Notes under the pieces: model-generated
Database searches by the model: none
What the model was told of the DNA's origin: nothing
Seen by the model: only the letters and a program-made list of their open reading frames with translations
Shown: in pieces, positions 50,883 through 56,326 of the stretch
Position numbering within the stretch: the first letter of the stretch is position 1
Layout of the letters: each line of letters opens with the position of its first letter
Origin: Clonostachys chloroleuca
Taxonomy: Eukaryota; Ascomycota; Sordariomycetes; Hypocreales; Bionectriaceae
Length of the DNA stretch: 64,000 nt
Assembly: GCA_037952775.1 (NCBI GenBank)
Contig: JBANAY010000003.1
Coordinates: forward strand, 32,612,001 to 32,676,000
Direction of reading: 5' to 3'
Program-made: the position numbers and the translations under genes

Positions 50883-51430
50883 GCCTAAGGATGCCGCTGG
50901 AGTGCGTGAAGAGAGGTGAGAGCATCTTGGGGAGAATGAACAGGTGATGGTTTTTTTTTTGTAGGCAGAAACGATGGAAGGCACTGGCGCTGTAGCCCCC
51001 GAGATTGGAGCTGGACTAGCGCTGTCTCACAGTGCTAACCCACCCTAGCGCGACACTGTCTGCCGCTCCCAACCGCCTGCATTTCGCCCTCGGAAAGGAG
51101 CCCAAGCCCACATCTGCTCACCTCCTTGATTGCGGGAAGCGAAGCGATTGGGACGGGTCCTGTTCTACCGCCTACCCTGTAGCTGCACGCAGTTATCTGG
51201 TTGAGCACTTATCACCCTGTTGCCGCTCCTGCATGTACTGACAGGTGTTGACCCGTTGCGATGTAGTGTTGGATTGGGTATATATTCTAGTGGGTGGTGT
51301 GGAGTGGGATATCGTACTGATGCTCCTGTGGCACGTCTGCCACTACCCGTCCTCCATGACTGTTGATCTCGACCTTAAAAACGGCCTGTACCACGCAGAC
51401 CAAGCTAACCGTCTGAACATCCACATAACC
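50883..51430. promoter_or_regulatory. Divergent promoter region
   Basis: 548 bases between the start codons of the Cys-Pro protein and the peptidase gene. The peptidase frame is open back to 51245 with earlier in-frame ATGs (51245, 51320, 51358), so the right part may partly be coding. It contains a short A/T run (50949-50959). Confidence 0.4.
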
Positions 51431-52849
51431 ATGTCCGACGCCTCTGAGATCCCCACAGCAAAGCTGCTTAGCAGCAAGGACCACATCGTGCCTGGCCAAT
51501 ATGTCGTGACCGAGCTCATGTTCCAGGTCCCTCTGGACTATTCCGACCCCTCTGGGGCTTCAATCACCCTCTTTGCTCGCCGTGCTACCAAACATGAAGT
51601 CCCAATCTTCCCTCAGGATGATCCTGAGGCCATCCAAACTCAGGCCACCAAGCCCTACATTGTCTACCTCGAGGGTGGACCTGGGTTCGGGAACCGTGAG
51701 CCCCAGGAGCATCCCATCACTCGGTCGTTCATCTCCAGGGGATATCAAGTTCTGCTCCTCGACCATCGTGGTGTTGGGCTGAGCACCCCTGTATCGGCTG
51801 ATATGCTCAAGGCTTTACCCGGCGGGGTAGAGGGACAGTTCGAGTATCTCAAGCTCATGCGGCAGGACAATACCGTCCGTGACTGTGAAGCCGTTCGCAA
51901 GTGCCTCACCGAGGGCTGGCCAGAGCACAAGTCGAAGTGGTCCACGTTCGGCCAGTCCTATGGCGGCTTCGTCAGTCTCAGCTACCTGTCGTTGCACCCC
52001 GAAGGTCTGAGGGAGGTTTTCCTGACTGGCGGACTGGCCCCCGTGGGTAAGACTGCCGACGAGGTGTACAGGGCAACCTTCCCCAGGGTGATCAAGCGGA
52101 ACGAGGCCTACTATAAGAAATTCCCCGAAGATGTCGAGAACGTGCGGCAGATCGCCGCCTACATCGAGAGCAAAGGCGGCGTGCCCCTCCCCTCTGGTGG
52201 ATCACTGACAGTACCACGCCTGTTATCCATCGGAATTTCTTTTGGTGCCCACGGAGGATTCGACAGTGTTCACTCCATCATCCTCCACCTCAAGACCTCG
52301 CTGGACCAGTTCGGCTTCCTCACCCGGGCCAGTCTTACACCCCTCGAGTCTGTCACCCCGTTCGACACCAACATCATTTACGCCATCATTCACGAGGCAA
52401 TCTACTGCGACGGGCCCGGATACGCCTCCAACTGGGCCTCGGAGCGGGTTGGGCGCAACTTTGACGAGTACTCGTGGCTCCAGCCTCTGAGCTCCGCCCT
52501 CGGCTCGGACGGCCCCCTGTACTTCTCCGGGGAGAATGTGTTCCCATTCCACTTTGACACGTACCCCGAGCTCGCGGAGCTGAAGCAGGTCTCGGAGAAG
52601 CTTGCCAAGTTCGACCAGTGGCCGGCGTTATATGACCAAGAGAAGCTCAAGAAGAACACGGTCCCTGTCTATGCTGCCTCCTACATCGACGACATGTACG
52701 TCGATTATGAGTTCGCCAAGGATACCGCGAACCTGGTCCAAGGGACAAAGGTGTTCGAGACAAATGTTATGTATCATTCCGCTCTTCGAGCGAAGACTGA
52801 AACGGTGCTTCAGAATCTCTTCCGATTGAGAGATGATGTGATTGATTAA
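51431..52849 (+). CDS. Proline iminopeptidase-like alpha/beta hydrolase (family S33)
   Basis: Serine peptidase that removes N-terminal proline or a related hydrolase. One exon, 472 residues from the ATG at 51431. I prefer this start because MSDASEIPTAKLLSSKDHIV leads directly into the family's opening strand (HIVPGQYVVTELMFQVPLDY); the longer frame from 51245 adds 62 hydrophobic and irregular residues. Motifs: oxyanion loop YLEGGPGFG, LLDHRGVGLSTP, and the nucleophile elbow GQSYGGF (Ser at about residue 176). The acid is probably in ASYIDDMYVDY and the histidine in MYHSALRA near the C-terminus. No signal peptide, so it is likely cytosolic. It converges on the HELQ-type helicase gene with 214 bases between stops. 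Confidence 0.88.
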   Translation: MSDASEIPTAKLLSSKDHIVPGQYVVTELMFQVPLDYSDPSGASITLFARRATKHEVPIFPQDDPEAIQTQATKPYIVYLEGGPGFGNREPQEHPITRSFISRGYQVLLLDHRGVGLSTPVSADMLKALPGGVEGQFEYLKLMRQDNTVRDCEAVRKCLTEGWPEHKSKWSTFGQSYGGFVSLSYLSLHPEGLREVFLTGGLAPVGKTADEVYRATFPRVIKRNEAYYKKFPEDVENVRQIAAYIESKGGVPLPSGGSLTVPRLLSIGISFGAHGGFDSVHSIILHLKTSLDQFGFLTRASLTPLESVTPFDTNIIYAIIHEAIYCDGPGYASNWASERVGRNFDEYSWLQPLSSALGSDGPLYFSGENVFPFHFDTYPELAELKQVSEKLAKFDQWPALYDQEKLKKNTVPVYAASYIDDMYVDYEFAKDTANLVQGTKVFETNVMYHSALRAKTETVLQNLFRLRDDVID

Positions 52850-53063: not shown

Positions 53064-56000
53064 CTACTCCAGCCCAAAGTCTATTTCTGCCTGCGTCTGG
53101 GCTTGCCATAATCTATTGGCTGCATTCGATATCACCTCCGCCTTGGCGAGCAGCTTCTCCTCGTACTTCTTGTTGTCTTTGCCCTTCTGACGAAGCTTGT
53201 GTGGCTGGGCTTGCAGTAGAACCGGCACCAGCTCAGACGGGTCAGCGTTGGCGATTGCGCCGACTGTGCGGAACCCGCTCTCCCAGAAGACACGGGCTGT
53301 CCGGCTCTTGACGAAGGGAATCTTGGCCAATTCCAGCAAGTCTGCTCGGGCGCCGGCCATCAGCCTGTCAGAGAAGTGGTCTAGAGTGGCAGCCAGGATT
53401 CCCCAGCCCATTTGCTCGCAAAACTTGATCATCCCCGCTGCGAAGCCCTGGCAGGTCTGTGAGAGGTTTTGGACGGTCCCTCGAGGCACCTCGTACTTTT
53501 GTGCAACGACGTGGACCGGAACCTCGTTGCACAAGTCGCGTAGCTGCAAGGCAAAGTAGAAGCGGCGGTATATTTTGGCTTGCTTCTTTTCCTCTGGCGT
53601 AGACTCTTTCATTGTCGCACCTTGTGCCCTATTTCCATTGTTAAAAAAAAACTAATAACCCTTAGGTGAGAGAGTGAGCTGGTGAAAAAAGGGAAGTACT
53701 TGCAGTCGAATGATGGTGGCCGGCTGGATCCCCAGAATGCGGAGGACACGAAATCCACTGTCGTCGAGAGACCCCATTTCGTCTCTGAAGACTTGCCAAT
53801 TGACAGCTGCGGCAAAGTCTTGCACAGGGGTGAATGTGTATAAAATATGCATGTCTCCATCCATTACGAAAGCCTTTAGTGCCCTACTGAGCTCCGCATG
53901 GATGAAGACACCATCGTCAGGGTCCAATGCGGAAGCCACAACGGCTTTGCCAAGTTGTGTTGCTGAATAGCTCCCATACCCATCTTCTACGACAAATCCG
54001 AGTTCAGTAACTTCCTTGAGGCCGGTATATAATAGTTGATCAATATGTTCAGTCCCATGAGTATATCGTAAGAGGGACTTTTGAAAGTGTTCCCGAATAG
54101 ATTCGTGACTGGTAGCAAGCCTGACTGAGATGACTTCCAAAAGTGCCCTATTAGTAGTATTAGCAGCCATTCAGCATGTAGAGCTGAGCGGAGGAGATAG
54201 ATACCTGTGAAAACGACGGTTCTCATTGTTGAGGCAGCTGATGACTTCTGGTAAATCGGCATGCATAAGCTCTACAACCTGTTCTAGGTCGCCCTCACGA
54301 CAGCACAGATAAGTCTCTCCAACAGGTGCCTTGCCTTGCCTGCCAGCACGGCCCCTCATCTGTCGCAGAAGGGCCGGACCAACGAAGTCCCGCCCCATAC
54401 GAGCATTATGAAGTATTACTCTGCGAGCTGGTCTATCTCCATGTTAATTAGGGAGCTGCAAAACCATGGTGTTGCGTGGGGGCGAGCTTACAGATTGATA
54501 CCAGCAGCAAGGCTGCATGTAGCAACACAGACGAGGATTGCACCTGAGTCGTATGCAGCGGCTACGAGCTCTCTCTCCTCTGTTGTTAAGCCAGCCTTAA
54601 AAATAAGTGTTAGAAACAACCTGGGTTGTGACATATGTGGAAACTTACGTCTATTGCAGATGGTTAATTTAACGCGTGGTGACCCGATGCAATCTGCATA
54701 GGATATGGCACGTTTTGGAACTTACGGTGGAACGCAACACCTTGCAAAACTGTTTCCCCTAATACCGGATCTAATCCAGTCGAGAGACTGCGTAGATCCT
54801 CCAGCAATTCTGTTCTTTTTTCAAGAAGCTCTGGGCTGATCTCGTATGGCTGTGGCATCACCCGACTAATCCAGCGGGCATCCGATTCGCAGGATCCGCG
54901 ACTGCCAGCAAAGACCAGTACTCCGTGACCTGCCGAGGCAGTCTCATAAGCAAGAGAGACGACTGAGTTCAGGACTGACTCAGTGAGCTCTTTGTGTTCT
55001 GAAGGCTCAATTCTTCTCATCGCTGAAAGTTTATCTTCCATTGAGCGCTGACTTTTCAGACTAGACGCTGTTTTGAGAAGACTTTGCGTGCTTGCGGCGG
55101 GATAGATGTTTCCTTCACACACCAGGTGCTCGTGAATGGGTACTGGCCGGTATTTCGTCTCGTATGAGTACGCATTGAGCCACTTAGCGATGATATCAAG
55201 ATTCTATGATTGTATTAGCCGAGCCGTGCGAAGTTGAGACTGGATAACACACAGGCAGAGTCGCGCTCATGGCTATTATCTGGACACGCTGTTCCAAACT
55301 CAGTAGTTTGGTCGTCATGAGTTCAAGCAAATAGCCTCGATGGCCATCATCGATCATATGGAGCTCATCCAGCACAACCGCTCGAAGTTGTGAAACCGAG
55401 CAATCATCGATGGCCGTATTGATAAGGGAGTTGGCCTAGACTTTGTATTAGAGCAGAGCAAAAAATTGAAAGGCGAATCCGGAAAAGTATCACACCTTCT
55501 CCAACGTGCAGACACCGATATCGAAGTCATTCCAGGCAGCCCTGATTTTGCCTCCACCGAAGAAGCCGACAACTCGGATGGTGTCCTCGTCGGCCCAACG
55601 TTTCCCGTGTAATGGATTTTGACTACTCTCCGGGGAGTTCTCATCAAACGATAACCCCTGGACGACACCGCGAAGCCAGCGAACTTTCTCCTGAACCAGA
55701 GCCACGTATGGAAGCACAAGCAATGCCTTTGCAGTTTTGTTGTTTATGATTCGTTTCAACATCAAGACTACCCCCAATCAGCAACTGCCTAGAACTAGTT
55801 TCGCATATTCTAGCTTGCGGCGAAACTTACGATCAGCTACCAAGGATTTGCCTCCGCCAGTGGGGGCACAATACACAAGATTTTTAGAACCGCTCAGGAG
55901 TTGGGGTCCTTTTAAGCAATTTTTCTGCCATGGATAGATTTGCTTGATTCCAAGGGAAGCAAAATTCTGCACAAGACGAGGCGGCAGCCCATAAAGCGGG

Positions 56001-56326
56001 TGGGCGAGACTGAGCTCGGGATCATAATCAGACGTTGGCGTGGCTGAAATTGCAACACGCTGAGTCCATTCCGATGGGCCCTCCTCGGGTGTCTCTAAGT
56101 TTACTATTGGGCTGGCAGAAAGCCTCCGAGCAACGCTCGAGGCCGTCGAAGCCCTCTTGAACTGTACTGGGCCTCTACTGATACCCTGCTGATTGCTGGG
56201 AGTGTCACTCGCGGACCAGCTTCTCTTTTGCCCGGCATGGGAGGTAACAGTGGTGAACGTTGTTGAACGCTCGTCATTTGCCGCTGTGAGACTCGTTTTG
56301 TGCAAGATGCCTTGCATGCTATTCAT
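53064..56326 (-). CDS. HELQ: HELQ/Hel308-type DNA repair helicase with a 2-base exon and a GC-AG intron
   Basis: Superfamily 2 3'-5' DNA helicase for replication-fork and crosslink repair; fungal copies are often labelled DNA polymerase theta, but there is no polymerase domain. Minus-strand exons: 55831-56326, 55496-55767, 55253-55435, 54726-55203, 54649-54650, 54492-54595, 54205-54432, 53704-54147, 53064-53628; 923 residues. Motifs: Q-like [17 protein letters not shown] (about 160), II DELH (about 279), III MSATLPN (across exons 3/4), [26 protein letters not shown] (across a splice), [12 protein letters not shown] (about 537-542). A winged helix and the HELQ C-terminal domain follow ([36 protein letters not shown]). 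The second His of HHAGL (codon 477) is complete only if the two bases at 54649-54650 form an exon. Intron 53629-53703 starts with GC and restores [11 protein letters not shown]. With both, the total is exactly 924 codons. Confidence 0.9.
54649..54650 (-). other. Two-nucleotide microexon (AC) of the helicase gene
   Basis: On the minus strand the two bases AC sit between an acceptor (TGCAATAG) and a donor (GTAAGTTTCC). The preceding intron (54651-54725, 75 bases) starts GTAAGTTCC and has ATTAAC about 16 bases before its acceptor. The following intron (54596-54648, 53 bases) has TTCTAACAC about 15 bases before its acceptor TTTTAAG. The preceding exon ends on the first base of a codon and the following one starts on a whole codon (GCT), so exactly two bases are needed between them; C+AC gives His and the conserved FHHAGLT. 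Confidence 0.7.

Follow-up and report, generated by a model that had tools for sequence, protein, structure and literature searches.

The window, that is, the whole stretch of 64,000 nucleotides of Clonostachys chloroleuca DNA that was analysed, carries on its minus strand a helicase gene whose fourth coding exon ends one base into a codon, the next recognisable coding sequence beginning on a whole codon after an interval of 130 nt (75 + 2 + 53) between CACC and GCT. How these two exons can be joined with the reading frame and the conserved FHHAGL motif both kept is the question that this locus raises. The features concerned are the following:

53064..56326, minus strand: helicase gene, Pol-theta/HELQ-type, 9 coding exons, 923 aa
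54726..55203, minus strand: exon 4, 478 nt, ending ...TTCCACC in phase 1 (CAC C)
54651..54725, minus strand: intron A, 75 nt, donor GTAAGT, acceptor AATAG
54663..54667, minus strand: branch-like TTAAC of intron A, seen in the sequence
54649..54650, minus strand: putative two-base exon AC, completing the second His codon of FHHAGL
54596..54648, minus strand: intron B, 53 nt, donor GTAAGT, acceptor TTTTTAAG
54609..54613, minus strand: branch-like CTAAC of intron B, seen in the sequence
54492..54595, minus strand: next exon, 104 nt, with a whole-codon start in phase 0 (GCT GGC), AGLTTEERE...
53629..53703, minus strand: last intron, GC-AG, donor CT/GCAAGT, required for the 924-codon sum

In the window sequence the nine-exon model sums to 2772 nt, corresponding to 924 codons including the stop and to 923 residues, which is the total given by the initial annotation. 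Its description of the interval is confirmed as well: exon 4 ends one base into a codon at a GTAAGT donor (at 54726, phase 1), the GCT exon starts on a whole codon (GCTGGC... from 54595), AATAG-AC-GTAAGT is present inside the 130-base gap on the minus strand, and the coordinates give introns of 75 and 53 bases. One detail had to be corrected, as an acceptor placed at 54689-54690 is actually the CAG at 54696-54694. The sequence AATAG/AC/GTAAGT, at 54655-54643, has the form of an ultra-short internal exon (1-3 nt) placed between an acceptor and a donor of its own. The donor GTAAGT is found in both introns A and B and, among the six other introns of the gene, which are 49-75 nt long, in intron 1 only. 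TTAAC and CTAAC were taken as putative branch sites for their likeness to the branch-point motif. Intron A also contains CACCACGC at 54681-54674 (minus strand), equal to eight bases of the spliced junction CACC-AC-GC. Read-through from exon 4 into this copy, followed by splicing at a GC donor (GCGTTA), would yield ...SGHHAGLTT; the match may be due to chance. A tandem-duplication origin of introns A and B was rejected, the similarity beyond the donor being matched by 405 of 500 shuffles. At the last intron the junction reads RLAQGA in the model and differs in the C. byssicola and C. rosea proteins (RLQVLPMAQGA, RLQVLPMFHQAQGA).

The product contains, in a Pfam search of its 923 aa, the domains DEAD, Helicase_C, HTH_61, POLQ_helical and DUF7898, and no C-terminal A-family polymerase domain was found in it at E 0.001. 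Fungal members of the POLQ-like helicase family are likewise without the polymerase domain, according to the accessible part of the report (PMC8469720), and the product is therefore regarded as the stand-alone fungal form. The best solved relatives are the helicase domains of human DNA polymerase theta, in which HHAGLT and EER are kept at the same place; with four domains present and POLQ as the best solved relative, the protein belongs with the Pol-theta-type helicases (POLQ helicase domain). The HELQ-type label first given to the gene stands in so far as a fungal orthologue is named HelQ in print (PMC8469720, accessible part), but the name Pol-theta-type suits it equally, because the nearest solved relatives are the helicase domains of DNA polymerase theta. 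Among the matches listed, the nearest sequences are those of Clonostachys byssicola and C. rosea, with 96% and 94% identity to the product, respectively. The gene is single-copy in the genome of the window, other matches listed having at most 34% identity, and when viral_contigs and genome_contigs were scanned for stray fungal copies of the helicase gene, no relative turned up. The assembly comprises 59.4 Mb in 4 contigs, of which contig C3 extends past 33 Mb; this is long by the standard of chromosomes in fungi of this type, and contigs may be joined. The convergent neighbour gene on the plus strand (51242-52849) has a 535-aa open frame whose translation resembles an alpha/beta-hydrolase or proline iminopeptidase.

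The possible ways of splicing the interval were enumerated for sites from 54759 to 54542 and intron lengths of 40-250 nt, on condition that the downstream AAAYDSG... stays in frame. None of the 55 single-intron products, with GT or GC donors, gives the conserved motif, and only one of the 116 two-intron products, with GT donors only, does so, namely that with the AC exon; a shorter part of the motif is kept by 8 of the 116, the whole motif by the AC exon alone. The initial annotation had stated that a single intron would leave the frame two bases short, that removal of both introns gives FHHAGLT and that longer middle exons lose the phase or add residues to the motif, with which these counts agree. 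When AC is skipped the frame stops after 519 aa, and it stops after 496 or 489 aa when intron A or intron B, respectively, is kept; the reading frame and the conserved motif both need inclusion, and the AC exon provides for both. Among the splicings enumerated in the window, the two-base exon is the only canonical one by which the conserved motif is retained. The gap was also shuffled 20,000 times by dinucleotides, with the first donor and the last acceptor held fixed; an AG-NN-GT flanked by 40 nt or more on either side appeared in 10.2% of the shuffles, the strong site YAG-NN-GTRAGT in 0.025%, and a strong site also completing the His codon in none (0/20,000). The weaker AG-NN-GT completing the His codon is not so rare (0.85% of shuffles), and this counts against the two-base exon as the best explanation.

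The homologue set consisted of 194 proteins, these being all those from the best 120 of 1103 and the best 120 of 1551 matches. A third protein search (best 120 of 186 listed) added 58 proteins, which were used for the read-through peptides, for the comparison of the lgn protein P0195 and for the Diaporthales control, and which were kept out of the tally by order because the query of that search was a broken protein. As far as the names show, the relatives covered are all Sordariomycetes; each annotated protein was assigned to an order from its species name by general taxonomy, and the lgn proteins were placed by their nearest relative. In one alignment of these best listed matches, a gap or insertion occurs at the AC junction in 71 of the 194 homologues, and at the six other junctions in 10, 8, 2, 17, 5 and 7. 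Residues 215-230 (192 of 194) and those around 365 (68) vary too, neither being at a junction of the query, and they look like length-variable stretches.

Proteins without [FY]HHAG[LIMV] are here called broken, and among the 194 listed homologues they amount to 88 of the 174 that are not lgn-only, versus 0 of the 20 lgn-only proteins. Among those listed, the broken proteins are distributed over Hypocreales (56/65), Glomerellales (6/10), Chaetomiaceae (13/15), Magnaporthales (4/4), Amphisphaeriales (3/5), other Sordariales (4/21), Xylariales (1/38), Diaporthales (0/10), Coniochaetales (0/3) and others (1/3). Among the annotated Hypocreales proteins, nine of 65 have the motif unbroken. Five of these are from Trichoderma, and another is P0005 of F. 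oxysporum, which shares 99.9% identity with the broken P0060; either the gene callers placed the two-base exon in these nine, or some of them have a simpler structure.

What the broken proteins carry in place of the motif was surveyed in 252 proteins, 111 of them broken, the decodings and lengths being worked out by hand from peptides, not from DNA. In 29 broken proteins FH is followed by R, and the next residue is K, E or M in 18 of the 29; GTAAG, GTGAG and GTATG after CACC would read as R plus K, E or M. FHH followed by a residue pair other than AG occurs in 16, with V in 12 of them, as a GT donor directly after AC would give. On the acceptor side, D stands before AGL in 14 proteins, several of which are from near-identical species, and in all 14 the residue before D can be encoded by a codon with A as its last base, which NAG/AC demands; in 22 proteins the upstream native residue is fused directly to AGL, which fits an acceptor before GCT. 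The simple donor reading is not followed by 11 of the 29 FHR and 4 of the 16 FHH proteins, and some broken peptides decode uncleanly. Single cases can be followed further, such as P0058 of F. verticillioides, which reads as if CACC were joined directly to GCTGG, out of frame, P0033 of F. circinatum and P0038 of F. decemcellulare, in which FHH-VS leads through 49 and 46 bases of intron B into a shifted AGLTTEE frame, and P0201 of C. orbiculare, in which FHH-VG is followed by the shifted AGLTTEE frame. The Fusarium and Colletotrichum peptides fit a donor after CACC, bases completing the His codon, a GT right after them and an acceptor before Ala; for Chaetomiaceae there are hints of both acceptors, from different species. 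Judged in this way from annotation artefacts, other Hypocreales, as well as Glomerellales, very probably share the AC exon and its four splice sites, and Chaetomiaceae and other Sordariomycetes probably do.

The intact proteins include two groups that differ in length. Fifteen proteins of 735-746 residues (lgn, ena or jgi) stop at query residue 736, where the last intron lies; all of them read FHHAG and show no large gap at the other junctions, and 14 are nearest to annotated Diaporthales, P0218 being nearest to Pleurostoma. From this pattern it would seem that no intron interrupts the FHHAGL codons in the genomic DNA of Diaporthales, and that the 15 short proteins were called without splicing. 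The Hypocreales-type lgn proteins P0004, P0040 and P0054, of 917-920 residues, are also intact and align to query residues 1-919; since they span this whole length, and since the Diaporthales-type lgn proteins appear to have been called without splicing, the three probably come from spliced RNA. P0004 is intact and 96.5% identical to the broken P0034 of Ilyonectria robusta. With P0195, which comes from the biased third search and is nearest to P0105 of Fusarium (87.7%), 4 of 4 Hypocreales lgn proteins are intact versus 9 of 65 annotated ones (Fisher p = 0.0008). These unbroken lgn proteins would lend indirect support to an AC exon in the mature mRNA.

Some observations can also be read in other ways. 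The proteins deposited for C. byssicola and C. rosea read GVAFHQERELV at the junction, P0001 and P0002 being deposited as FHQERELV, and the enumeration yields the same letters from the DNA of the window if splicing runs from donor 54725 to acceptor 54579. That the two deposited proteins fail at this junction in a manner foreseeable from the DNA speaks for the AC exon. The true protein could, on the other hand, be the deposited one, made by removal of a single intron of 146 nt (54725-54580) that is canonical and in frame. We consider this very improbable: such an intron deletes AGLTTE and alters the second His of a motif found in human POLQ, in 106 of the 194 listed homologues and in all 20 lgn-only proteins, it leaves the AGLTTE coding stretch intronic, and its length is unusual in comparison with 49-75 nt. 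The two-base phase mismatch is also what an assembly or sequencing indel could cause by putting a normal intron out of phase, but the two missing bases are flanked in the window by a complete acceptor and a complete donor, and the separate annotations of C. byssicola, C. rosea, Fusarium, Colletotrichum and others break at the same codon, which makes such an error exceedingly unlikely.

It is hardly credible, too, that the interval is a stwintron (spliceosomal twin intron), all 130 bases being removed in two steps and no base kept. Stwintrons occur in Sordariomycetes, and this very helicase gene has a [D1,2] stwintron in Hypoxylaceae, as described in the accessible parts of the reports (PMC8469720, PMC9024468), which resembles our case in the POLQ-like helicase family and in the removal of two introns in succession, and differs from it in having a split external donor and leaving no base of an exon behind. 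In the window, however, intron B has an uninterrupted donor, unlike a [D]-type stwintron, whose external donor is split by the internal intron, and the loss of all 130 bases shifts the frame, with a stop after 519 aa. Moreover, the 14 Xylariales proteins examined, mostly of Hypoxylaceae, have no indel at residue 476 (0/14), compared with 7 of 14 at residues 416-419 (P0064, P0098, P0100, P0102, P0115, P0185 and P0193), and have further ones near 207-223, 360, 368-369 and 644. A helicase stwintron being reported in Hypoxylaceae, the 416-419 signal may mark a complex intron there, which suggests that this stwintron sits about 58 codons upstream of the AC junction.

The reading that we hold to be almost certainly right is a constitutive AC exon between two short GT-AG introns that are removed one after the other, with the motif restored and the exon very probably kept in relatives. 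The splice sites, the uniqueness of this solution and the way in which the annotations fail are shown directly; the splicing as such, its sequential order and the conservation at the DNA level are what we infer from these comparisons. Introns A and B would each be recognised separately, and intron definition may suffice for this, as a donor, a branch-like site and an acceptor are present in each of the two short introns. Their excision would be successive, because the acceptor of A and the donor of B are two bases apart and presumably cannot both be bound. If A were removed first, donor B would have C instead of G at position -3, and a C there pairs better with U1 than a G. In the product, CAC C, AC and GCT would be joined, by which the conserved FHHAGL motif would be restored. 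Gene finders often cannot place the AC exon, and for this reason the protein is broken at the junction.

Exons of this size are not without precedent. The initial annotation had called microexons of 1-3 bases very rare, and the kind is indeed rare, but the statement needs an update, since a one-base exon (G) of CYP621A was published in 2026 for Fusarium and confirmed by RNA reads, exons of 2-5 bp being known in Arabidopsis, Drosophila and humans (PMC12940212, accessible part). As far as that part goes, CYP621A is the closest parallel in several respects: it too is from Hypocreales, its exon completes a codon in a conserved motif, its joint was misannotated and its two short introns look like one intron of 139 nt; by contrast, its exon has one base, lies in a P450 gene, is RNA-confirmed and is reported within Fusarium, whereas the AC exon lies in a repair gene, is known from sequence and seems to span several orders (PMC12940212). 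One-base exons are also described for plant APC11 and VPS55 in the accessible parts of the reports (PMC4674806, PMC8831610); like AC they are ultra-short and missed by annotation, they are deeply conserved, as AC may be, and in VPS55 strong conserved GTRAGT donors lie beside the exon (PMC8831610), but they are from plants, have one base and are experimentally confirmed (PMC4674806, PMC8831610). The Xlr2 microexon of Trichoderma is another microexon in a Hypocreales fungus, but, in the accessible part of the report (PMC11121469), its inclusion changes with glucose, which sets it apart from a constitutive exon of two bases. As far as the surveyed part of the open-access literature goes, no fungal exon of two bases has been described. 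In view of the published one-base exons of plants and Fusarium, the AC exon joins a rare known kind, within which its probable age and breadth are unusual; the likely age and breadth, together with the systematic misannotation, are what make it notable.

A more tentative proposal, which we regard as possible though somewhat short of probable, is that the AC exon was present in the ancestor of Sordariomycetes and was kept thereafter, most annotations of the genomes carrying it having missed it, as a frozen intermediate of intron sliding from which some lineages lost one or both introns. If so, lineages keeping only A or only B would mimic a two-base intron slide. The reality of intron sliding is disputed (PMC7730772, accessible part), and the relatives examined here offer a natural test of how it happens. 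If the AC exon is real, the Pol-theta-type helicase of Hypocreales would be misannotated at a conserved motif in 56 of the 65 annotated proteins that were examined, a repair gene would contain a two-base exon that looks conserved across orders, and intron-definition splicing in fungi would be able to keep an exon of near-zero length for a very long time.
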